This document shows, in pieces, positions 24,441 to 59,054 of a stretch of 64,000 nt of DNA. This DNA is from Apostichopus japonicus (lineage: Eukaryota > Echinodermata > Holothuroidea > Aspidochirotida > Stichopodidae): NCBI RefSeq assembly GCF_037975245.1, contig NC_092564.1, positions 24,796,484 through 24,860,483 on the forward strand, written 5' to 3'. Below the pieces are notes generated by a model. It had not been told where the DNA came from and ran no database searches. It saw only the letters and a list, made by a program, of their open reading frames with translations. The first letter of the stretch is position 1. Every line of letters starts with the position of its first letter. Both the position numbers and the translations under genes were made by a program.

Positions 24441-25030
24441 TTGTAAACACGATATCTCAAGAAGGGAAGATCAGACCAATTTCATATTTAGTGTGTAGAA
24501 GTACCACATTAATTACAAGAAGCCTATTATTTTTGGTAGAGGTCAAAGTTTATTTGGGGTCACCAGGGGTCAAACTACGAAAACCTTGTAAACATGATAT
24601 CTCAAGAGGAAAAGGCCAGACCAACTTCACATTTGCTGTGTAGAAGGACCACATTGAGGGTAAAAGCTAAGTGTTTTTGGTGGAGGTCAATGGTCATTCG
24701 GGGTCACCAGAGGTCAAATTGTGAAAACCTATAAACATGATATCTCAACAACGGCAGGTCAGACCAATTTCCTATTTGATGTGTAGAAAAAACCACATTA
24801 AGTAAAAAAGTCTCCTGTTTTTTGTGGAGGTGAAAGATCATTTGGGGTCACCAGGGGTCAAATTGTGAAAACCTCGTAAACATGATATCTCAAGAAGGGA
24901 ATCATCGGCAGACCTCAATTTTTGGTGTGTAGAAGTACCACATTGTGTAAAAGAAGCCTGTAGTTTTTGGTGGAGAGCAAAGGTCATCTGGGGTCATCAT
25001 AGGTCAAATCGTGAAATCTTTGTGAACGTG
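24440..25030. repeat. Tandem repeat, about 143-bp unit, four copies
   Basis: Each unit contains ACATGATATCTCAAGAAGGG, TGTGTAGAAGTACCACATT and GGGGTCACCAGGGGTCAAA. The GATATCTCAA word recurs at about 24450, 24596, 24738 and 24882. Words of the same style occur in the dispersed repeat at 47160-47800. Confidence 0.8.
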
Positions 25031-30262: not shown

Positions 30263-31040
30263 GATCAGCTGGTCATAAAGCCAGAAACTTAAATGCTGAG
30301 TTAAGGTTTAACTAGACTGAGGAATGCTTTATTAGCTGGATACATCCAACAGGTACCAAGTCCCACCCACATCTTCCACCGGTCAGATTCTTCCATTTAT
30401 TTTAACTGTGGCAAACTCAACCACTGAAAGCTGGGACTTGAACAGGGTACAGTCTACAACAGCATCCATGGCACATTATGGCCCAGCCAGGCATCAGATT
30501 GGAATAATCATAGCAATTTGTTATATATGCTTGGCACCACGAAAAACACTTTTTAAGTCCCATAGACTACTCCACAGTTATGCTCAAGTTATATGTACAT
30601 AGTCCCACAGTCAATATGATACATCTTTGGAGATAAATACCCGTTTATGAAGATCTCATCTCTTTTCTTCTTTCTTTTCAAGAAACAACTTCTACAAGAT
30701 TATATCATTGGAAACAATTCTTCAAGTAAGTATGACCTCCCCCCTCTCCCTCCCCCTCCATCCCTAGGGATGCACACTTTAATATCAATGTTGACCGATA
30801 ATTCCCGACCAGATTTAATATCAAAGGAGGGTTGATGTCAGCAATTGATGAAGTCTGAAAGCCTTCTAATAATGATATCGTCTTTTCTTAGTATTTGGTC
30901 TTTGTGTTAAAACCATCTCTCATCTCAACATTAGAGACAATGCGTTACTACTTGGGAGAATAGCAGAGTCCCAAATGTCAGATGCAGTCAAATGCAGTGC
31001 TGAATAAATTAATGGCGAACTGATCGTTAGAGAGAACTAA

Positions 31041-31383
31041 TTTTTGTTTTGAACAACCAAAGTTTCCCTCCAAGGTCGTCTGACAGTCATGTAGCTTTTA
31101 GTAGGAACTATTATTATTATTATTTATGTTTTATGGACCAACCACATGAATGTTTCATGTAACAAAAAAGGAAAGGAGGGGGAATGTTATTAGTTCTGCT
31201 CATCGAAATTAGAGCTAAATTTTGTTTTGGATAACCAAAGTTTCCCTCCAAGGTCGTCTGACAGTCATGTAGCTTTTAGTAGGAACTATTATTATGATGA
31301 TTTTTGTTTTATAGACCAACCACATGAATGTTTCATGTAACAAAAAGGAAAGGAGGGGGAATGTTATTTGTTCTGCTCATTAA
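31041..31383. repeat. Tandem duplication, 178-bp period
   Basis: Two near-identical copies starting TTTGTTTTG, with ACCAAAGTTTCCCTCCAAGG, TCGTCTGACAGTCATGTAGC and GGAAAGGAGGGGGAATGTTA. They lie just upstream of the dynein gene. Confidence 0.85.
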
Positions 31384-31888
31384 AATTACACAGGGCTGAA
31401 TACATGGCTAACTACAGAACAAGCAGCCTATTACATAGCAGCTCCTTCTTGGAGTAGCTGTAATATTCACTTTTGAGTTGCATTGCTGAAAATTAAATAG
31501 GATATTATGGGGTGAAGGAATGTAAGCTGAATTAATGTCCATTTAACTGGGGGGGGGGGATACAGAGAGGGGTGGAGGTCTTTAGGACATTTGCACAATT
31601 GATTCAAACTGATCTGTTTTATAATCTGTGTATTTCTTGCAATTTATACAGGTTTGAAACAAAGGTTTTTTTTTTTTAATGTTAACAGTAATGTGTGAAA
31701 GTAAATTGCCCGATAGCTGAAAGGTACATAGTTTAAGTAGATTTCTTGTCATGTCCTTTGAAGTAATGTGCACTCACTATATAGGAAATTGCTAAGCAAT
31801 TGATGCAACCCCAAACTATCATTGGGATTGTCTTGCATATAATAACGATTATTTGAAAATCGTTTTTTTTACCAGGAATCTTTCGCAA

Positions 31889-44726
<12,838 letters not shown>

Positions 44727-46257
44727 GAAGAAAGATGTGACTCTATCCTTATTTGTGTAATGTGCTTAAGTATATAATATGTGCATGTTCAGTGCAGTTT
44801 TCAAGCAATGCCACAAAGGCTGTTAGTTTTGTATGGTAGCCAGATCGGTTGCAAAGTTGTTGTCGGAAACAGGAATATGAATATGGCCCTTGCATTACAG
44901 TAAAGTGGATATTGATTTGATTTTAGTTTTGAAAAGCTTCTGTAGAGTGTAGGCCCAAGTAAGGTTAAATTAAGCAAATGAGTAGCAGACTAGATTTGGC
45001 AAAAATTTGAATAACAAATGATGGGTGAGGGGAGGATTGGGAGAGGGAAGATTGTTTTAAGGTTCCCATGGTATAAATGAAAGGTAATTTATCAATCAAT
45101 TTTGGCTGCATTTCTCTGATGATCAAATCAAACAGAACTAAACATAAATAGAAGAAATGCTTTGAAAAGCTTATGTAGATTGTAGGCACAAAATATGGAA
45201 GCACTTTTGTGGTTTCAGTAAATAGTAAGCCAAATTTTGGCAATTTGAATAACAAATGAAGGGTGAGGGGAGGATTGGGAGAGGGAAGATTATTTTACAT
45301 GGTATAAATGAAAGGTAATTTATCAATCAATTTTCGGCTGCGTTTCTGCGATGATCCAATTAAGAAAAAACTTAATAAGGAAAGGAGAAATGCTTTTTAA
45401 TTTCTCCTATTGCTTTCCTCAATCATGAAAGAATCCAATTTGTGAATGTTTTTTGTGTTTTTCTTTTTTGTAGGTTTGGTATTTCTTTCATGCATTCTTG
45501 CCAGGGTTCAACAATGTAATTAATCATCTATGCTGAAGCATTCTTTAAAAGGTGCTTGGGCCTGATAATATTTCATCAAAATAGGTAAATGTTACAAATT
45601 GAAAGAAAAAACAATAATTAAAAGAAATGGGAAAACGAAAAAACCTGCAAAAAGTAAGTTTTGTCATTTGAAATGGGAAAACCAGTTTTGATATAATTTG
45701 AGGCTCCTGATAGTTGGAGTCGAAATTTTGGCGGGAAGTCTCTTTCCCACAGTACTGTCTGCTCCTGCAGGGACATTCCTCTTTGAGTCGCTTCTGAGAG
45801 GTATAAGACAATGTTGAAAGGCAAATCAGCTAGCCTAACACATAAACTGTGTAAGTAATTGATGCCTTAGCTTAAACAATCACAGATGCCTCCTTCCCTT
45901 GCCAGAGGCTTACAACACTTCAAAACCATCTGCGATCCCATTAAATGTTTGAAAGTAGATTCCTCGGAGTAGACCAAGGATTTTATGATAAATGTTTAGT
46001 CAACAAAGTTGTGAAGGCTAACAATCCTACTTAAACCTCCTCAACACTTTTTGAAAGTGGATTTCTTGAGAAACAGAGGCCAAAACATTAATACAAAAGT
46101 TTTCGTCAACAACAAGCTTTGTTTCTTCCTTTTGTGTGGAGCTGATTCAATATCAAAGTATTTTTTATTAGGTTAGGTAAACTGTGCTTGTATATTTGTA
46201 TACCAACAATATTTAAATTGTGTATTGTATGCTTACTGCTTAATGTCTTAAAATAAA
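44727..46257 (+). other. DYNC1I: Probable dynein 3' UTR
   Basis: AT-rich sequence after the stop, ending at an AATAAA signal at 46252-46257. It contains a tandem duplication of about 230 bp (44930-45400), recognised by TGAGGGGAGGATTGGGAGAG in both copies. The true 3' end could lie at another signal. Confidence 0.5.
44930..45400. repeat. Tandem duplication, about 230-bp period
   Basis: GAAAAGCTTCTGTAGAGTGT / GAAAAGCTTATGTAGATTGT starts each copy, and GTATAAATGAAAGGTAATTT occurs in both. Probably transcribed in the dynein 3' UTR. Confidence 0.85.
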
Positions 46258-47159
46258 TTGGTGGTGATGAAAAGGGATGTTTTGATGATTTCCATCTTCC
46301 TGTTTTGTCATTCTTTGTCTTATTCTTTAGTGAACCTCTACAAAATTCAGACACAAAAAGAAAGATGTAATCAATGCCAAAAAGGCAAAACACAGACACA
46401 CACAAAACACAATAGAGAGAAAACAAACCACATACACAAAGGCTTTTGTGTATAATGCACATGTTTAACTGACTCAAGAATAAGAAACTGTATAACCTCG
46501 TGCCAAAAAAATATATATATATAAATTGCAAATAACAGTATTCTGTACATGTTCATAAATTGTACAGGTATAGAAATGTACAGAAACTCCTAAAGGTTAT
46601 TGTCACTTGTTGTGGACAAAAACGTTGCAAATATATGTACACAGGTTGGTCACATCCTGACAAAAAAACTTATTTTATCCGTGCCAAACACGGAAGTTTC
46701 TTTGAAGTAAGTGCCATGCTGACAGGAAAACTGGTTGTTGTCGGAGATGAAAACTTTGTCAGGATTGCCTTCAAGTTTTAACCTGCCAGTCTTTTTTAGA
46801 TTTTTTCCTGAATGCACTTTTTCTTGGGAGGATTGTGACCCTCCAAGATATCACCAGCCATGTTTAGGAAATCAGTAGGGTTGATAACTGGTCACCATGA
46901 GGAAACGAGAGATCATAAAATGGAGCATGTGCTTGACTGCCTGTCAAAAGAAAGCAGGTAAAGGAATTTTGAATAAATATGATAAAACATACGCCCCAAA
47001 AATATAACCTTTTACTTCTATTCCTCGCCCATCAATGCACCTGTTCTACCTCGTCTATTGGCTCTTTTGTCTCTGAGAAATCAGCTTTGGAATATATTTT
47101 TGAAAAAGGGAGCAGTTAAACTTTCCTCATATCTATGAATCTTACAGTGTACACTGTGT

Positions 47160-47800
47160 TTTTAGCTCATACCAGCATGCTGGTGTGAGCTATTGTTACA
47201 GTGCGGCGTCTATCACTCTATCCGTCAACAATTGGGAAAACCGCTCCCACTCGCACAGTGTTTGATGGAATTTCATGAAACTTGGACACAAGGACCATTG
47301 GGTATAGGGCCATCAGAGATGGTCCGAAATTTGGGGTCAAAGGTCACCTGTGGGCCGTAATGGGCCATTTTGTGGAAATACGCAAAATGCTTCTTCTCCT
47401 ACAGATTCCATGGTACAATGTTTAGGGTTTGTCACGATAGTACTACGGAAGTTTTACCTTCAGGGTGTTCATGAATTTGAGATCAAAGATCAACTAGGGG
47501 TCTTTTGTGGCCCGGGCCGGGGCCCAATATTTTCAAATTGCTCCTGTTCGTACAGTGTATGGCCAGTTATAATGAAACTTGGTCACAACGTTCCTCAGGA
47601 TGAGAGTTACGAGGGGTGTTCGGAAAATTGAGGTCAAATGTCATTTAGGGGGTCATCGGGGGTCATTCTTTGTAATATTTTCAAATATCTCAATCTCCTC
47701 AAGATTTTGATGGATCATATTCAAAGTTGAACTGATGATTGTTGGACTGTGTATGAATAAGGTGATGCCTAATAATTTTTGGTCAAAAGTTAATTAATTA
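47160..47800. repeat. Dispersed repeat with palindromic start
   Basis: Starts TTTTAGCTCATACCAGCATG then CTGGTGTGAGCTATTG (hairpin AGCTCATACCAGCA / TGCTGGTGTGAGCT). It continues with phrases like AAACTTGGACACAAGGACC and GGGGTCAAAGGTCACCTG. The AGCTCA..TGAGCTATTG opening is a known style of widespread marine-invertebrate repeats. No coding frame. Confidence 0.6.
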
Positions 47801-47991
47801 CAATTAATCCCCATTGTTTAAAAAAATCTGAGCCTTCACCTTTTGCCAAAGCTCCTTTAATTTGTCTCCCAGTCTCTGCAGTGTTTGTTTACATTTGTGG
47901 TTAAGCTCTGCAGAGGCTGTTAGTGGAATTAAAGCAGGACTGGGAGTTGTTATTAACTGTTGAACTGTAAGCGTGAGAGCCCAATAGCCAA

Positions 47992-50689
47992 TCAGCACTT
48001 GCCGATTCTTAGAAGTCTTTGAGCCTGAGGTATGTAGGCAGCCAGCCAAAATTTGGCAAGGAGTGCTTCAGGTCTGCTCAGGTAGAGGGGAGAAAGTCTA
48101 ATAGGGTAGGTCAGTGGTATTGTTTGAGAGAGTGGGTAAAATAGGATTTAAAGGGGGAAAATAGGAATTATAGCCAGTGGTGTGGCAAGGATTCTGCTAA
48201 CGAAGGGGGGGGGGGTTATCCCTCATGGGCCCAAAGTTGGTGGAATCTGAAAAATGGCCTGAAATTTGGTGGGCCACAAAGTTTTGTGGGCCCTACATTT
48301 TTAAGCTCGAAAAGGTATGAGCTTCTGCACCATTGGTGCTCTAGTTATATCATGCTGCTAACACATCAATGCTGAGTTTGGGCATATGAGAGTTACAGTG
48401 CAGATGCAAATAAGAGTCTAGCATAATTTGGGTATAGGAATTGGGGGGGAGGAGGGATTTCTTATTGTCATACTTTCATAAACTTGTAACAATAATTACC
48501 ATCTAAATGTACCTTAATACAATCAAAGTTTACTTTGTATCAATTTGTCAAACCTAATCAGATGAAAGAAGATGTTTTTAATGTTACTTATTTCACAAGA
48601 AGTTCACTTGAAAATTGCAATCGGCCCTAATTTCTTGGTTTAAGCAAAATAGCACCATTAAAATAATTTTCCTCATTGATTGTCTTATAGTCTGCACATA
48701 TGGAAATAACTTACCTTTTCCTTTGTGGTGGAGGATTTGGTGCTACTTGGACAGCTGGTTGGGTCACTATTACTTGTGTTGGCTGGGCAGGCTATGTAAA
48801 AGCAAAGATAAAAAAGAATGGAATAAGATCATTTCGTAAAGACCCTCAGTCAAACATTTTGAAATCAGCAATATATATATAATCAAATAAACTAAAACAA
48901 TAAAAAATAAAAAAATATAAATATAACCAATATTTGGCATACCAGATATTTTTCTTTAAAAAACAGAAACTGTGTATCATTTACATCAAAATCAGACACC
49001 CCCCTGGCTTACTAATTTAACCAAGTATATCCTTGGGGGTTTAACTCTTTATAGTAAAGCTTGTTGAATTAGACTTACAGGAGGTTCTTGTACCTTTAAT
49101 AAGAAAGATAAGAGAATATCATTATAAATAGGGAGAAAATAATGATAACAAAAATATAAAAATTGAATTGATTGTGTCTATATAAAAAAGGTTGAGATAT
49201 CTTGTTATGTCATGGAATATTAAAACTAAGTAATTGAATTAAACTCGTTTGCAGATACAGATGTCAAGGATGAAAAGAAAATTGGGAATTTTATGGAAGG
49301 GACAGATAGATGAATAAAAGATTTCATGAAGAAGGGCATGGTGCATCCTTAGGCATAACTAGACTATAAATTAGGTCTGTAATTAGCTCTAAACGCAAGG
49401 TTGTACTAATAAATTACTCATAAGCTCTTATTTTGAGGTGGAATATGAGGTGCAGGTCCATAACAGTGGTCTAATTCTTTCCTGGCTGAATGGTAAAATC
49501 CCTCGACTTTACCATCCCCCACCCCAATCTGAACCATCCCACCCCCCCCCCCACAAAGAAAACCCCATTTCCCTCAACTGACGATGGAAGGAGGGGGACA
49601 GTCCCCCTCCCTCACCCCCTTTATCTTTGCATACACCACTGCTACAAAGTCAAGTACTGACGATGAAAATGAAGAGTATTAGATCAAATGTAAATGAACT
49701 TACAAACTGTTGTGGTGGTGCAGACGGTTGAACCTGTGAATTTGTGGTTAACAAAAAATAGTTCTCATTATTTAGAAAATTACTTTTTCTGATTATAATG
49801 TACCAACTGTGAAAATTGGTTAACAACAAAATACAAAATTTGTGTTACTTTGAAAGTTAACTTTAATTTTAAACTGAAATAGGTGAAGAAGCTGCTCCAT
49901 GAAATGTATTGCAATTTACTAGAAGTATTAAGGGTATCGTTGACAATTAGCCGTATGGTTCATTTATTGGCTATGGTTCTATTACATTCTGGTTACATCT
50001 ACTTCAGTTGCCAATCTACACTATTTACATACTAATAATACTTCTGGGATGGGTGTGGGGGGATGGGGAGTAATAATTCATGTTCCCATGTATTTGTCGC
50101 TTTCTCAAGACAAAACTGATTCAATATACCTTGTTCACAATGCGTGTATAAACTTACCACGGTTGCTGAGTGGGGTGCTGGATAGGGTGCTGGATAGGGT
50201 GCTGGGTGTGCTTGTTGTACCTATATAACAAGGATGTAAGATAACTAAATTATTTTTAAAAGATTATAAAATTCCTCTAACAATGGTTGTATTTATTTTG
50301 TTCAAATGATCAACTATTTGTTGTCTGTCTGTTTGTTTTTTGTTTGTTTGCTTGGTTTTTGAGGTCGTATTTTTCCCCTTCTTTTTTAGACTCTTCTTTT
50401 ACATCATTATGTCACAATGAGTATCACATATGCATACTTACTACAGTGGCCTGATGTGGTTGACCTTGGTGGACCTAAGGAAAAATAAAAAGGATATCAA
50501 GACAGTGAAAAAATGTTAAAGACATATATCATGATTTATATATGATTTATATATATGATTTATATATATGATTTATATATAAATATATATGATTTATATA
50601 TATATAGATATGATTTATATATATATAGATATATATATATACATATATGTATATATATATATGTATATATATGTATATATATATAAATT

Positions 50690-50732
<43 letters not shown>

Positions 50733-53700
50733 GTATATTAATATATATATTAATATATATATATATATATATATATGATTCCACCTCGGAATTTTTTGTT
50801 GTTGAAGCGGTGCTAGATTTTAATGCCATCTAAAAGGAATCTTACCACTGTGGTTGCTGGTGCTGGTGGTGGTGGAGGTTGTTGGATCTGCATATAAAGA
50901 GAGAAAGAATCACTTTGCTAGGAGCACAATTTGAAAAAGGGCTCCAAGATTGTTAAAATACCTTGCAGAGAGAAAACCAAAATAACAACTTGGATACGAT
51001 AATATTGTTTAGATAGATGTGTCTAAGTATTTGAAATATTTGTAAAGAACACGTATGAGCTTTATAAAGATTCTTTGAGTGACTTAAAATAACCCCTGTG
51101 ACTTGCGAGAGGAGTAAACTACACAATTGTAAAACATATGTATGCAAGATGAGGAACAGGCGCGAATGTGACACTTATATCACTTTAAGCTTTCATTCGG
51201 TATCGGTAATGATGTTATTAACCTGTATTCAATTGATACACGCTAGACAATGGAGTGAGGTTGAGTAGGGATGAATGGGGGTGCAGTAGGGGTGTATGAC
51301 GATTCACAGTATAGGTGCAGTAGGGGTGTATGACAATTCACTTGGACCTATATATCCTACTCACCATCGTGACCTGTCCTGGTATGGCTCCAGGGGCTTG
51401 TTGATGGACCTGTAGTAAAGGGAAATTTAACATTTCGGAATATTTTTGTGCAGTTTTCGTAACAGAAAGAAGAAAAAGGGACAAACAATAAAAGTAAATC
51501 CGGCAAGGGACCGGATTACCACCCCATACCACCTATTACGTAATGTAATGTTACGTAATGAATGTAATGTAACGTTAAAGTTAACTGCACTTTTGTCAAT
51601 GATAACATATACCTGCATGCAGTTTGTCAGTAGTACAATTGAGTCCTCCCCCTCCCCCGCCCTAGAGGTCACGCTGCCACACCAACCTTTCGATTTCTGT
51701 TTATGTCCCAGTATATGGTGATAGATCGATTGTCGTGAATGAATGATGTCGCTAAGATACCAAAATGGAAAAAATACCGTTTATACTAGAACTGATTGGG
51801 TTGTTAAGTTTGTTAAGTTTGCCCGAAGAGAGTGCCTTTTCCGGCTATAATTAAACCCGTGTTCGTCAGTGGCGTCGTGCCTATTGCCCCCCCCCCCCCC
51901 CAAATTTTGTCAAAGGTGTCATAAAAGGTTGTCATAATTTAAGAAAAAAAGTGTTTTCGAAATCGAAAAGAACACTAAATAGTCAATTGCTCTTTGATGG
52001 TCATTGCGGATTTTCCACACACCTCAAAGACGACATATCGGGATTAGTAATGCCATTGCCTTTGAATATGTTTGTCCTAAGCTCGCGTTTGATATTTGAT
52101 GTCAAATGTACATAGCGCCACCAACTTGAGGTAAGAATATCTCCCAAAATAAAAAATTGCCGGAAATTTTTATCAATTTTTGGGAAGTGCCGTTTCCTGC
52201 AATCTGAGGGGTCTGCCAGACGAAAAATTTTCTTGTACGCTGCGCGCCAACCTGTGGTGGCGGTCCGCTTAAATAGTCATCACCCATGCTCACGCCCCCC
52301 CCCCCCAATTTATTTTCGCACGACGCCCCTGGTGTTCGTCTGTAGTCATCCATTCTCAGATTACAAGGACGACTGTTTGATTGTGATACTTACAACAACA
52401 TGTTGCGGAGGAGGAGGTTGAGGTGCTGGATTTTGGTGCTGGATCTGAGAAATAAAGAAAGGGGGGGGGGGGGGAGGGAAGAGACTCATTTACTTATGAA
52501 TACAAGAAAAAGTGCTTCATTATTAAGTTCCTAAATACTAATCCATCTATATTTCTGAATGTCAATCTGAATTATTGAATATTAATTAAAATTTAAGTAG
52601 CTTTCTTTCTTAACTTAAGCACTTTTGAAATCGCGAAATGTGCTTCCAATGTAGGCTTCATGTTTCTTTTCTCTAAGTCCTGCCATGGTCATAAAATTTA
52701 TATATTTATGTTTTAATTGACTTTTTATACTCTCTTTCTAAGTTTTCGAAGGTTCTCTCACAGACACTAAAAGATTGTAACAATTTATTGAAAGCTCAAA
52801 AGTAAGTTCCTCAAAAATAAAATTTATTACACTTCGATAAATTCAGACGAAACGCCTTAGTGTAGAAATATTGATATAAGAATTAATATAACTTACGATC
52901 ATGTGACCCTGTGGTTGTTGTGGATTTATCTAAGAAAAGAAACACACTCATATTCATAAAGATTATCATTCATTTTTTATTTTTTAATGACTCATTATTT
53001 TTCGTTCATTTATATTAAAGAGTAAAATGGTAAATCAAGACAAATGGGATGAATAGATAGATGAATAAAGTAAATCCGTTTTCATGACACTCAGAATAGT
53101 TGTTGTAATGCTGCTATAGAAAGACATTTTCCCTGTGTTAGGATACCTTTAGGCTATTATCTGTATTTATTCTTCTCAACATCAGGGAATAGTTTAATGG
53201 TCAGGAGGTAAATTGTGAAGAAAATTTAGCAAGTTTTTGACCTGTATCAATGATGGAGGCTTAATGCAGATGGCCTTTAAAGGGTTTTAACATTTGTTCG
53301 TGTTATGAATGTTCTTTTCCCTTTCAAAGCAGCTATGATGTAAAGTAACAGACTGAAAGAAAGGCAAAAGTTGTTACCATGGTTACTGTCTGTTGCGGTA
53401 TCGTCTGCTGGGGTTGTTGTTGTTGAATCTGGTAATATAAAAATATAGGAGGTTATGGCTTATATATATAGGAAGGCCTGTATTATAACGATTATGAATT
53501 AGTGTGTTAATGAATTGTGAAAATATAATTACGGTGATTAATATGAGCATTTCTTAAACCATATAGTTAATGTGACTATTAACGTTTGAACACTTTCCAA
53601 TATCAAAACATAAACTGATTGTCGATATTATTTATCAAAGTTTACACATAACTCTCTATTTACTTATATATAAAAGCAATGTGGCAAAATGTAGGTCTCT

Positions 53701-56700
53701 AACCGTACGAAACTTACCACAATGTGTTGTTGGTTGCCCGGTGCACCTGTGTGAATTATCTGTGGTAAAGTTTGAAATAGACACAGTCATTGATTAAAAT
53801 TGGAAAACTACATTGCTGGTTAGATGTACAACTACAACGCAAACTCTCTTCTCCACCCCCCCCCCTCCCCGGCACTCCTATTCCCTAAATAGGCCTACGT
53901 GTGATTGAATGCGTACATAAAATATATTGTTATATATTTAAACTTTATATACATATAGTTTTACTTGGATAGCCGTCGCTAATCTTCTCCAAGGCTCTCT
54001 CTGAAAAGCAAAATCAAGGTAATGACAAATTGACATATTATGACTATACCTTATATACCAAAAACATGCGCGTACATAAAATATTTTGTTATATATTTAA
54101 ACTTTGTAAACACATAGTTTTACTTGGATAGACGTCGCTAATATTCTCCAAGAAACTCTCTCTCATAAAACAAAAGCAAGGTAGTGACAAATTATTGACA
54201 TGTTATGCCTATCCTATATACAAACAAAGTTGGGTGAAAGTTGCTAGTTCTGGTATAACTATCAATATATATGTCTGATTTGGCAGTGGATTTTTGAACT
54301 TAGGCTGTTATAACAGAACGAGAGCGTTGAGTTCTGTACATTTATTATATTCTCTTTGCCCGCGCACCTCCTCTCGGGAAGCAAATTCTGTGTAGGATAG
54401 TCAAAAAAAATTTCGGGAAACTATGCTTGTTAAAAAAACGTTAGAAATGAATTGTCACAGTTTGTACTTACATTATGCTGACCGCCAACTTGATACTGTG
54501 CATTGAATAATCAAATGAATAAACCAGTTAAGGGTATGTGATGAGCAAATTGATGAAAATTGCACTCTTAATTTGATTTTTCATTTAATAATTAGTTTGA
54601 ATATATATATTAATTTTTTTAATTTTCAATAAGATACTGTACCCTAACGTGATATAAATGACTAATGACAAAGTAAGGAGGCCCGGTTTTACTGAGGGCG
54701 ATAATTTTTACATGAGCTACATTCATACTATATGCTGAATCGTCTACAGTTATCATTAGTTGTGCATATATATACCTAACTCAGCGGTATACTGCTGGTC
54801 ACGTGGTCACAACATAATTGCAAATAATTAAACTGTATCGAACTCCTTCCATTATTTGCACCCAACGAATGCTTCTACCTACCGCCATTAATATAACTTA
54901 CTAGCGGCGATTTATAAACACGTCAGTGTTTATTTTCAAGTAGGTCCTGCATGTCCATCGGAAGGTTGGCAACGTAACTTATAGAGCGAAGGATCACACT
55001 ACATATATGTAAACCCTGTGGTAAATATATTGTTCGGTGGTTGCATATATATATAGCTATAGCTAGCTACAGGGGCGTATCCAGGGGGGCGCAACAGGCG
55101 CGCGCCCCCCCTATTGGCCGTCACCAAACAAAAAAAAAAGTTTAGCAAAAAAAAAAAAAAAAAATTGATGACGACCTTTATGTGAAATGTCGGTGATCGC
55201 TCAACCCCCCCCTCCCTCCCGTATGCCTTATTTTTTGTTTGCCAAAAAAAGGTTCTGGCGAAGTTCGGCGGCATAATAGTTTTAGAAACATAGACGGTAA
55301 TTGTGTTTGTATTATCACTATAAACACTAAATGACATGCCAGCCATACTAAATTGTGCATTTTGTGTCCATATTTACTGGAAATGTTGCTTATTATTAAG
55401 GTCGAAAAATGGATCACATATGGCCATGGGCGGCGATCCTGGGTGGAGGGGGGATATATCCCCCCATGAAAATGGTTGGAGGGGATGTAATGCACCATAT
55501 CCCCCCCCCCCACCAAATGCCATGGATAAGAATATTTTCATGCCTACATTTATGCATCTTCGTTAATGTACGGCTCTTTTTTAGCTTCATTTCTCGCCTA
55601 CCATAAACGCAGTGCGATCTTTTCAAATAAAGCGTCTTTATAAAGCAAAAATAGTTGACTGTTGGCTTCATTGGCCCTATAACAACAAAATGTATTATTG
55701 CGCCCACGATATTGATATAGTACATATATGCACCCTCATAGTATTCATATAGGCCCTATAGTAGGCCTACACACGTACATGTTCCCTCGAACAGCTGAGA
55801 ATCTCATGTAACCAGGGTAATGCTTAATACACGTTTCACCTGGATGCCCTAGCAATCGGTACCTAGGAATGTAACTATGTGTAATTGTGTATTGCATGTG
55901 TATAGGCCTATAATAGCCTGCATGAGGCCATTTTCTTCATCGAATAATATAACAGAGCTCTCGAACATTCTAACGTTGCGCCTGAAACAAGATTGACAGG
56001 GGCAATTTTCCCAAAATAACACCCGAAATTAAAAAAAAAGTACTTTGGATCCTGATTATGAGATATTTCGGACATGACATCCCTATTTTAAAGTTGGGTA
56101 TATGCCGCTTGGAAACCTCGGGAAGTGCCGTTCCGGCCATCTAGAGGGTTTGTTAATCCCAAAATTTTCTTGTACGCTTCGCGCCAATTCATGGTGGCGC
56201 TACGCTTAGATAGTCAACAAGGTCATATTCCCCCCCCCCCCCCACTCGGAAGTACGGATCGCCGCCCATGCATATGACACCATTTTGCATTTCAGCCCTT
56301 CTTTGAAAGCAAAAATTGTACACCCCTCCCCTTAGACCCATCCCCCAGGACGGCGATCATTCATGCCTGGCGCCCCCCCTATTGGAAAATCCTGGATACG
56401 CCCCTGTAGCTACTTGTGGTAACACAGGATTCCGTGTTTCAACGATAAGGATTATAATAGCCAACTGATTCGTTTGTTACATTGCAGGTTTTTCTCCCAA
56501 ATTGTTGACATGTAATAGCACACGCTCAAGAATGAATTCATGTACCATACGCAATTGTATAGTTTAAATGAAGTAGTACCACGTTGCATTTAGGCCGCCC
56601 TACCACCCACAAAGAAAAATTAATTAAAGGAATGGGCGCCCACTACCCCAGACGGACATCGGCAAGCATTTTTGTCATGGCACCTCCTCCCCTCTTCGCC

Positions 56701-56996
56701 GAATACAAACTCAGGGGCCGGACATGGCACCCAGGCCTCCTCCCCGACACATCGTTACCGGCATGCAACAAATAAAATAAAATAATACAATACAATACAA
56801 CACGTACAACACGTTAGCTGATATATACATATACTGATCATACATACAAAGACAAACAGGTGGGCGAGTGACAGTTTTTTTGACATTACACAAACATTTT
56901 TCAACAAATACGCAATGAAGCAGAATTAAACAGCAAAGAAATGTGATCATAGGCCCTATAAGTCTATGGAATAAAATGTTTAATACTTACCGCCAT
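47992..56996 (-). CDS. Pro/Gln-rich protein made of serial microexons (unrecognised)
   Basis: Fourteen candidate coding exons: 56991-56996, 54472-54495, 53718-53759, 53378-53428, 52897-52929, 52394-52444, 51365-51409, 50846-50887, 50442-50474, 50158-50220, 49704-49733, 49079-49093, 48715-48791, 47992-48073. They total 594 bp, 197 residues. Every intron from exon 1 to exon 12 is phase 0. Internal exons are 15 to 63 bp and most begin with an I or V codon then Q, H or N, and end in V or M before GTAAG. The peptides are rich in P, Q, H, A, with no signal peptide, cysteine pattern or known domain. The last exon (phase 2 join, [14 protein letters not shown], stop TGA at 47994-47992) is the least certain. 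The ATG (56996) is followed after two codons by a GTAAGT donor. Function unknown; exon skipping would never shift the frame. It lies tail-to-tail with dynein and head-to-head with STK11IP. Confidence 0.72.
48170..48360. mobile_element. Transposon-like fragment
   Basis: CAGTGGTGTGGCAAGGATTC followed by a G homopolymer resembles the left ends of the hAT-type elements. No right end or duplication found. Confidence 0.4.
49465..49645. mobile_element. Transposon-like fragment in an intron of the microexon gene
   Basis: CAGTGGTCTAATTC at the left (also at about 15801) and ACACCACTG at the right look like short inverted ends. The interior is C-rich and flanking duplications do not match. Confidence 0.45.
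50158..53759 (-). CDS. Microexon gene, central block of eight duplicated-looking exons
   Basis: In transcript order the exon peptides start [56 protein letters not shown] and VQQAHPAP; they end HIV, VTM, HMI, HVV, VTM, TTV, ATV, ATV. The shared frame, shared edges and similar composition suggest serial duplication of one ancestral exon. All eight have AG acceptors and GT donors, six of them GTAAG. The [17 protein letters not shown] exon has an inner YPAP repeat. Confidence 0.78.
50520..50780. repeat. AT microsatellite
   Basis: (TA)n with ATGATTTATATATA variants, about 260 bp, self-complementary. Intronic. Confidence 0.95.
51867..52331. mobile_element. Non-autonomous hAT-type element, 465 bp
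   Basis: CAGTGGCGTCGTGCC and CGCACGACGCCCCTG are near-perfect inverted ends. They are flanked by the perfect 8-bp duplication GTGTTCGT (51859-51866 and 52332-52339). Inside lies a minus-orientation hairpin-core copy (about 52125-52280, TTTTCTTGTACGCTGCGCGC). Located between two microexons. Confidence 0.88.
53912..54230. repeat. Tandem duplication, 160-bp period
   Basis: GTACATAAAATAT..TTGTTATATATTTAAACTTT and AGTTTTACTTGGATAG occur twice, at 53912 and 54072. Confidence 0.85.
53965..54000 (-). other. Candidate extra 12-codon microexon
   Basis: A TTGCTTTTCAG acceptor, 12 phase-0 codons ([12 protein letters not shown]) and a GTAAAA donor lie between microexons 2 and 3. The composition (W, R) differs from its neighbours. 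The block belongs to a 160-bp tandem duplication whose other copy has an in-frame stop. Confidence 0.3.
55070..56406. mobile_element. Transposon with inverted ends and a nested element, 1.34 kb
   Basis: CAGGGGCGTATCCAGG and CCTGGATACGCCCCTG are perfect inverted ends, flanked by TAGCTA on both sides (55064-55069 and 56407-56412). The flanks are 6 bp rather than 8, so either part of the duplication has decayed or the family differs. It contains the nested element 55425-56270. Confidence 0.8.
55425..56270. mobile_element. Nested hAT-type element, 846 bp
   Basis: CATGGGCGGCGATCC and GGATCGCCGCCCATG form nearly ideal inverted ends, flanked by CATATGGC and CATATGAC (7 of 8 alike). It carries a minus-orientation hairpin-core copy at about 56118-56220. 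Confidence 0.7.
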
Positions 56997-56999
56997 TTT

Positions 57000-59054
57000 G
57001 ATATATAATAGTTATGTTGATAAGACGTTATATTAAGTCTAGATGTCCAATCCGTTTTACAGCGCTAACCTGAAGTCTCGTCAAATCACCACTTATCGAT
57101 TTAAGTTTGTTCATTGGGGCCGCAGAGAGGCAGTAACCGTTTATTAAGTTTACATGACAACAATAATCTGTTCCCAGATCCCTTGAAATCTCTTCATTCA
57201 AGGGACGTCCTGAGAAATCGATTTTCTTTTCAACGAATGGAATGACGTCAGAGAACCCTGAATCCCTTCTAAAGGTTCGTGGGAGGGAAGATGAGTAAAA
57301 ACCTAGGTCCTAATGTAGCTACCGGGCCGAAAACTGACCGAAAGGAAAAATTGCAAAATTCATAAATGATTAATTGTAAAATTCAAAATGAAACACATTG
57401 CTTGGTAATAACACGATACTTTTCATTTACTATATACTAAGGGAACCTCTTATTTTAGATTGTTAAATATCACTCTGATAACAAAATAATTCAGGATCGC
57501 ATTTGCTGAAACTTGAGAAAGAGGGTGGGAATGAAATAGCAAAAAACACAATTTGTGTAAATGCCATATATTTGATTAATTTCTATGGTAAATACATATA
57601 CATGGTACCCTGTACTGCAAGGAGGCTCCACTGATACAGGGAAACTTAACGATTTTTAAGGAGATATTAACATGATGCTCGTTTTTTGAATAAAAATATA
57701 CAACATAGGTCTCCGGCAAATATCCAACCAATGTCAAGCAAGTTAAAATACATGCAGTTTGTGAAAGTGGAATATGAATACCTAACATGCTGTACGAACA
57801 GAGTTGGCCGCTCGTTTTGTGATTGTACAAAGTGCATTGACCCAAATGTTTGTAAACACCACAAATACACACAGAGAGAGAGGGAGAGCAGAGAGCTCGT
57901 CATGTGATCTTTACATCATAACAATTGCATACATGTGTGTTCGGTTCAAGCACAGTTTATACGTAGGTACACTGTACAGTGGATCGGGCACAACAAATCC
58001 GTGCTGAAGGCTAGAGACAAACTCGACTTGTATCACTGTTTGGTAGCTTCGGGGAGCAGCAATAGCAGTCAGAGACTTACTTAAATATTAGTGGCAGGTA
58101 GTGGTTACCCTTAGTTCTACAGTAGACTTACAGACAGTTTTGTCAAAACTGCTGTGCGTAACGTTAATCATTTAGGGCTAGGCTAGGCCTAAGTAGCCTA
58201 ATGAAAACAACATATTGCAATTGGTCTACAATACATGTATAGTAAAGACTTCATACGCACCTTCGTAATTGACGCATATTGAAATACTACTAGCAACGAT
58301 ACAGCAGGCAACCTAAACTTTTTGCAGCGAAGCAGAGTTACATATTTCATGAGTTTGAATCCATTTCAGGTAGCCTATGTGCTCATCAAATTGTGTTTTT
58401 TTGAGCATTTAACACCCTCCCCCAGTTTTGCATATATCTTTGGCATTTGCCGATCTTACTCCCTAACAATAACCAACATTACCTCAACATGGTACCACTA
58501 CTCTCTGGGACCTGAGCTTAGAGGCTCAGAGGATACGGTAGCAAACTGCATCCAGAGTCAATGGATGTATACCTACAAAGTTACAGTTAGCTAATCAACG
58601 AATGTGTCAATTTCGGGGTTTGAAAGAACTTGACAAAGTAGCCATTTTGTGGTCAACTACTGCTCAACTGTACATTGCATAGGCACAGAACAATAAATAT
58701 TTTGAGATCATTACATTTCTGAGGAACAACACATGAAAAACGCATACAGTTGAGTGATTTGGATTTTGTTAAATGTTAAATATGAGTACAGTATAAGTAG
58801 CATGCAATTTAAATATGTGTTGCCTAGCTACAGTAAGTATGCCTAACTTGATCTGCATAGCCATATAAGAATATATTTGCTAAGTCTAATAATAATGATG
58901 CATTTACGTCTGGTTATTGAAACCTCACAAACAAAACTTTACAGATGCAATTGACATCACGTTCACTAGGCTGGCTTTCGGTATATTGTTCTGTCATAAA
59001 GTGAATGTCTTTGTATGTTTATAGTAATTTCTTTGTATGTTGCTTATATTTCAG
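57000..59054. promoter_or_regulatory. Head-to-head spacer between the microexon gene and STK11IP
   Basis: About 2.1 kb between the minus-strand ATG (56996) and the plus-strand STK11IP ATG (59135). It should contain the 5' UTR exons and promoters of both. No TATA box, CpG island or conserved site could be named. Short frames at 57576-57907 and 58322-58594 look random. Confidence 0.4.

Follow-up and report, generated by a model that had tools for sequence, protein, structure and literature searches.

RESULTS

A minus-strand gene made mainly of short, frame-neutral exons

We analyzed a 64,000-nt stretch of the genome of the sea cucumber Apostichopus japonicus (hereafter "the window"), in which splice sites and open reading frames delineate a minus-strand gene of 13 exons, E1 through E13, running from 56,996 to 48,715. 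Its defining feature is a series of eleven consecutive internal exons, E2 through E12, each 15 to 63 nt long (5 to 21 codons), each a multiple of three in length, and each bounded by phase-0 introns. We refer to these as tile exons, and we consider it very probable that this is a real gene that carries them. The features of the gene, including a putative terminal exon (E14), are as follows.

56,996-56,991, minus strand: E1, codes for MA; phase-0 donor gtaagta; start context AAAATGG; putative start
54,495-54,472, minus strand: E2, YQVGGQHN, 24 nt, phase 0-0
53,759-53,718, minus strand: E3, 14-residue tile, 42 nt, phase 0-0
53,428-53,378, minus strand: E4, 17-residue tile, 51 nt, phase 0-0; weaker donor gtaaca
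52,929-52,897, minus strand: E5, 11-residue tile, 33 nt, phase 0-0
52,444-52,394, minus strand: E6, 17-residue tile, 51 nt, phase 0-0
51,409-51,365, minus strand: E7, 15-residue tile, 45 nt, phase 0-0
50,887-50,846, minus strand: E8, 14-residue tile, 42 nt, phase 0-0
50,474-50,442, minus strand: E9, 11-residue tile, 33 nt, phase 0-0
50,220-50,158, minus strand: E10, 21-residue tile, 63 nt, phase 0-0; in-frame 12-bp tandem repeat
49,733-49,704, minus strand: E11, 10-residue tile, 30 nt, phase 0-0
49,093-49,079, minus strand: E12, VQEPP, 15 nt, phase 0-0
48,791-48,715, minus strand: E13, 25 residues (+R), 77 nt; enters in phase 0 and leaves in phase 2; donor AAG|GTAAGT
46,940-46,913, minus strand: putative coding part of E14, read in phase 2 from acceptor ctttcttttgacag; supplies the end of QRKR, then QSSTCSIL and a stop
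46,912-46,145, minus strand: probable 3' untranslated region of E14; AATAAA signal (plus-strand TTTATT at 46,164); 3' end approximate

Introns 1 through 12 are all phase 0 and measure 221 to 2,495 nt, whereas intron 13 is phase 2, and the frame-neutral rule therefore stops at E13. The tile exons contain no stop codon and make up 429 of about 540 coding nt. An AG precedes all eleven of them, and the donor is GTRAG in ten, the exception being E4 (gtaac). An initial annotation of this DNA had described at least eleven consecutive internal exons of 5 to 21 codons with phase-0 flanks; the eleven are E2 through E12. Its further description of the gene as assembled almost entirely from frame-neutral microexons needs qualification: short, frame-neutral exons do make up most of the gene, but intron 13 departs from the pattern, and "microexon" is a loose term when only 2 of the 12 exons E2 through E13 are ≤27 nt (5 are ≤36 nt, and 10 are ≤51 nt).

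To obtain a chance rate for such a series, we scanned for P/Q/H-rich, stop-free exons of 3n nt lying between AG and GTAA or GTGA, with an edge rule requiring I or V as the first residue and V, I, M, F, or P as the last. As a control, we used 20 stretches of 10 kb (position 5.00 Mb of contigs C1 through C20), amounting to 200 kb or, with both strands, 40 strands. The scan found nine exons at the locus (E4 through E12; E2 and E3 were missed), none on either strand of the rest of the window, and none in the controls. Since we derived the edge rule from the locus itself, this result gives a chance rate and not an independent prediction. Without the edge rule, there were 12 overlapping calls at the locus, four elsewhere on the minus strand, and four on the plus strand, and the 40 control strands gave 23 calls with a maximum of two per strand. 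A stricter splice-site rule left eight exons at the locus versus four in the 200 kb of controls, both strands included. When no composition rule was applied, ten exons were found at the locus versus 1.8 expected for its length, the control maximum being five per 10-kb strand.

The tiles share residue edges and composition

The tiles resemble each other in more than phase. The first residue is I or V in 10 of the 11 tile exons (Tyr in E2), and the last is V, I, or M in 8 of the 10 exons E3 through E12 (F in E11 and P in E12), which bears out the shared tile edges proposed in the initial annotation. In E3 through E12, the V, I, M, L, and F residues number 27, with 10 at the first position, 14 among the last three, and 3 in the interior, such that 24 of 27 lie at tile edges. 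When the residues of these ten tiles were permuted, the start pattern was reached in 0 of 100,000 permutations and the end pattern in 1 of 100,000. The G+C content of E2 through E13 is 0.51 versus 0.36 for the locus.

With E14 included, the product has 179 residues, among them 39 Q, 38 P, and 11 H (49% P+Q+H) as well as 5 Ser, together with 1 acidic residue, 3 K/R, and 1 Cys. It is almost uncharged, proline- and glutamine-rich, and probably disordered. One PSAP and one PPPPP motif occur in it; we gave them no weight because their chance occurrence is high in such sequence.

At the N terminus, we listed ATG exons with a phase-0 donor of specified types between 59,500 and 54,495. With the exception of a 23-residue, moderately hydrophobic ATG frame at 58,997 (donor gtgagg), none combines a GTRAG donor with a hydrophobic leader. 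The hydrophobic ATG frames at 56,950, 56,845, and 56,830 lie just inside intron 1 and share one weak donor (gtaacg). With no candidate in this interval better than E1, a missed signal-peptide exon was rejected, in line with the initial remark that no signal peptide is visible.

Relatives and origin of the tiles

The family had been reported as unrecognized, and our searches agree: Pfam gave no family for the E1 through E13 product, and PDB gave no relative. Rfam gave no match in the window, and Pfam none for the single open reading frame scanned downstream of E13 (minus strand, 46,650-46,850). We then searched the genome (671,581,487 bases in 35 contigs, with the locus on C4) with the protein at E ≤ 1. 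Four of the five matches are the gene's own exons (E13, E10, E7, and E3), and the fifth, on C1, has 29% identity, an E value of 0.69, and two stops. No second copy was thus seen, in a search that retrieved no more than 4 of the 13 exons of the gene itself and could miss a diverged paralogue. At the DNA level, 49,690-50,520 (E9 through E11 with their introns) matched only itself, and the assembly therefore holds no recent copy of that part. The V-rich P/Q head had suggested a PLAC8-type membrane protein; this candidate was rejected, as the sole PLAC8 match in the genome at E ≤ 0.01 is on C3, with none on C4. Judged by titles and the beginnings of abstracts, the accessible literature on echinoderm microexons, whose coverage leaves out most subscription journals, describes no such gene.

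Similarity among the tiles suggests that they are likely the result of old duplication. The tile DNA similarity is 9.24, compared with 8.29 ± 0.30 when tile interiors are codon-shuffled (z 3.2), and the tile protein similarity is 13.1, compared with 11.1 ± 1.0 after shuffling (about z 2). The in-frame 12-bp tandem repeat in E10 represents a second route of tile growth.

A putative terminal exon with a CaaX box

Reading through E13 meets a stop at once (QRKR*). Farther downstream, we scored 193 AG sites between 48,650 and 45,000. The one at 46,940 comes third, after those at 45,137 and 45,115, and is the top-scoring acceptor outside a repeat in intron 13 (described below) between 48,650 and 45,140. 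Entering this acceptor in phase 2 yields R-QSSTCSIL-stop and a 179-residue protein ending QRKRQSSTCSIL. All K/R residues of this protein are in the RKR that closes E13, and its sole Cys stands fourth from the C terminus, in the CaaX position. A Leu at X in such a box favors geranylgeranylation.

For the base rate, we read the acceptors of at least 5 bits in the window and the control stretches (200 kb) in that phase and dropped products of at least 200 residues, which left 1,170 acceptors, the 46,940 site among them. A Cys at that place was found for 41 of them, a broad CaaX box for 10, and C-x-[ILV]-[LF] for 3. We put the use of E14 at 46,940, with its predicted CaaX end (CSIL), only just short of an even chance.

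The initial annotation had instead placed the 3' end near 47,992, for a total of 197 residues. We rejected this terminal exon because it falls within the following feature.

47,157-48,347, no strand assigned: high-copy repeat in intron 13, found by genome DNA search; contains the earlier proposed last exon

This repeat of ~1.19 kb had 696 candidates in the genome; the best 40 match at 96-100%, a range that narrows to 96-98% for the 39 that lie elsewhere in the genome. In a second genome search over the region, the best 40 of 564 candidates were scored, and the 39 outside the locus are limited to query positions 642-701, the edge of the repeat; among these best 40 of 564, 46,500 to about 47,140 matched only itself. 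On the other side of the repeat, about 48,355-49,000 likewise matched only itself among the matches listed (best 40 scored, genome DNA search). The left end of the repeat is palindromic, and the whole looks like a young, mobile-element-like insertion.

Other elements in the window

Intron 1 contains an element of ~1.34 kb (55,070-56,406) with inverted ends CAGGGGCGTATCCAGG, one piece of which (56,131-56,219) is 76% like 52,194-52,282. The intron between E8 and E9 includes a 250-bp AT-rich dinucleotide tract (50,524-50,776) with inverted arms that are 82-87% complementary, a possible pre-mRNA hairpin.

On the plus strand, a gene at 31,889-44,700 lies tail-to-tail with the tile gene. One of its exons gives WD40-type matches, all below the cut-off, and Pfam gave no family for one N-terminal piece of it; it looks like a gene for the intermediate chain of cytoplasmic dynein. 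The end of one of its exons, together with the donor, falls within a 58-bp tandem repeat (3.0 copies, 44,106-44,278). From about 59,000, also on the plus strand, a presumably STK11IP-like gene with LRR matches below the cut-off lies head-to-head with the tile gene at roughly 2 kb. Tandem arrays are present at 24,442-25,016 (144-bp units), 31,033-31,388 (178-bp units), and 39,436-40,530 (20/22-bp units).

DISCUSSION

Proposed working and competing explanations

Our main reading of this locus draws on twelve introns that agree in phase, with AG acceptors and donors that are mostly GTRAG, on the specificity of the exon series to the locus, on the edge position of the aliphatic residues, on the similarity of tile-interior DNA, and, at the 3' side, on the E13 donor, the 46,940 acceptor, and the CaaX end that follows it. 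We tentatively propose, at somewhat less than an even chance, that it encodes a lipid-anchored disordered tether, for which regulated skipping would not be required. The eleven phase-0 tiles, mostly aliphatic-edged with a P/Q/H/A-rich interior, would constitute a spacer, and the last two exons would supply a short basic stretch and the CaaX box (RKR-QSST-CSIL). The C terminus could then be prenylated and held on a membrane, with the tiled region projecting as a flexible Pro/Gln tether that may offer proline-rich ligand sites. Splicing might omit tiles, or evolution might remove and add them, with the downstream frame and the anchor kept. Owing to the phase coherence, tile skipping would cost the frame nothing. 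We regard regulated tile skipping as doubtful. Stronger still would be the claim of an independent, non-parasite micro-exon device in an intracellular prenylated protein, in which any combination of the eleven tiles could be skipped (2^11 forms) while the anchor stays constant; this we consider unlikely.

Several observations weigh against the anchored-tether proposal or parts of it. The gene model is known from genomic sequence alone and from one genome, and E1 contributes just two residues, supported by its start context and donor. Several acceptors have low leave-one-out scores (E5, -0.4 bits; E2, 2.1 bits; E3, 3.7 bits). At the 3' end, six acceptors between 48,650 and 45,000 reach at least 5 bits outside the repeat, two of which (45,137 and 45,115) outscore 46,940; given the base rates above, a CaaX box would arise by chance among six such acceptors in about 1.5 to 5% of cases. 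Recent exon duplication is not seen, because the similarity of intron flanks is at background downstream of the tiles (7.8) and little above it upstream (10.2; control, 8.66 ± 0.72). Finally, a UGC element marks neuronal microexons, and it occurs near 2 of 12 exons here, with a background of 0.23 per site, i.e., without enrichment.

An explanation to which we give an even chance is that every transcript retains the full set of these real exons. Phase 0 would then be inherited from ancient tile duplication or from low-complexity growth and would not serve to make variants, and tile number would change on an evolutionary time scale only. Duplicating one phase-0 unit is expected to leave all of introns 1 through 12 in phase 0, and the excess similarity of tile-interior DNA and the growth of E10 through its 12-bp repeat are consistent with this history. 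Moreover, GTRAG at 10 of 11 tile donors is not the mark of weak cassette exons, and the UGC element is not enriched. Constant inclusion sits less well with the weak acceptors of E5, E2, and E3, given that short exons and weak acceptors generally favor skipping, and with a phase coherence that makes skipping frame-free. A separate question concerns the C terminus. It is quite possible, although we lean against it, that there is no CaaX box and that E13 is either the last coding exon (QRKR*) or is spliced to some other C-terminal exon or domain. The read-through stop of E13 is followed about 130 nt on by ATTAAA (plus-strand TTTAAT at 48,577), and acceptors at 48,553, 45,137, and 45,115 are available to such a transcript. 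However, the E13 donor is a full consensus, and a phase-2 exon before GTAA yields such a stop mechanically; in addition, the one downstream open reading frame scanned (46,650-46,850) gave no Pfam match, and the PLAC8 match is on C3 only.

Two further explanations would change the nature of the gene altogether. We find it very unlikely that a signal-peptide exon was overlooked and that the locus is a secreted gene of the micro-exon or SCPP type. Such a gene would share the exon logic and the P/Q richness, and the hydrophobic ATG frames at 56,950, 56,845, and 56,830 could provide its leader. Yet all three depend on the same gtaacg and lie inside intron 1, after an E1 with gtaagta, and intron 13 is phase 2; furthermore, matrix proteins are typically acidic or phosphorylated, unlike a product with 1 acidic residue and 5 Ser. 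More improbable still is the reading of the locus as non-coding DNA that happens to contain a series of splice-like sites, or as a gene that no longer functions: it would agree with the absence of relatives in Pfam, PDB, and the genome protein search, but it is difficult to reconcile with nine edge-rule exons versus none in the 200-kb control, with tiles free of stops, and with a G+C of 0.51 for E2 through E13 in a locus of 0.36.

Comparison with known systems

In schistosome micro-exon genes (MEGs), the coding region consists mostly of tiny symmetrical exons separated by longer introns, and the frame survives skipping (PMC4350168, PMC4671649). Their exons measure 6-81 bp and their introns 0.1-5 kb, and several products are described as disordered (PMC10526429). 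The likeness to this logic claimed in the initial annotation is borne out, as most of the coding region here is in small symmetrical exons, and both E2 through E13 (15-77 nt) and introns 1 through 12 are within the MEG ranges. In a narrower usage, MEG microexons are <36 bp and lie between two long flanking exons, and 26 of 33 are symmetrical in MEGs 26-32 (PMC4671649); only 5 of the 12 exons E2 through E13 are that short. Every MEG product has a signal peptide, and the genes appear to be limited to platyhelminths (PMC4350168). Unlike these secreted flatworm proteins, the A. japonicus product comes from an echinoderm, has an E1 that codes for MA only, and has no signal peptide found between 59,500 and 54,495. 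In addition, MEGs form families, whereas no second copy of the sea cucumber tile gene was seen.

In SCPP genes, virtually all introns are phase 0, so that exons can be duplicated, lost, or skipped without a frameshift (PMC6732285, PMC7807025); the P/Q-rich class (ameloblastin, amelogenin, and kin) has Pro/Gln-rich products (PMC13367325). In the tile gene, introns 1 through 12 are phase 0, and the 179-residue product is Pro/Gln-rich as well (38 P, 39 Q). By these two measures, P/Q-rich SCPP genes appear to be a closer parallel than MEGs. In contrast to SCPP genes, which are vertebrate and encode secreted proteins, intron 13 is phase 2, no signal peptide was found in the interval listed, and the C terminus would be of the cytosolic membrane-anchor kind if E14 is right. 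The SCPP cluster adjoins SPARC-like genes; the neighbors of the tile gene in the window are a WD40-type gene and an LRR-type gene.

Two other likenesses are partial. Rho/Rap/Ral-type tails have basic residues shortly before C-a-a-X, and here an RKR would shortly precede CSIL, with Leu as X, in a tail that depends on the putative E14; unlike those proteins, the product has no GTPase or other Pfam domain, its body being the tiled P/Q/H-rich region. Collagen triple-helix exons and titin PEVK exons are runs of short symmetrical exons that code for repetitive segments, and the tile gene has such a run as well, although a much shorter one without Gly-X-Y or PEVK.

Runs of frame-neutral short exons are known as a means of variation in flatworm MEGs and as the norm in enamel-type SCPP genes, both of which serve secreted proteins. 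If our proposal is true, such a device would also arise in an apparently cytosolic, perhaps lipid-anchored echinoderm protein, without host-parasite conflict or biomineralization. The locus would then offer a one-gene test case of whether phase-0 tiling leads to isoform diversity or is a mere scar of exon duplication.

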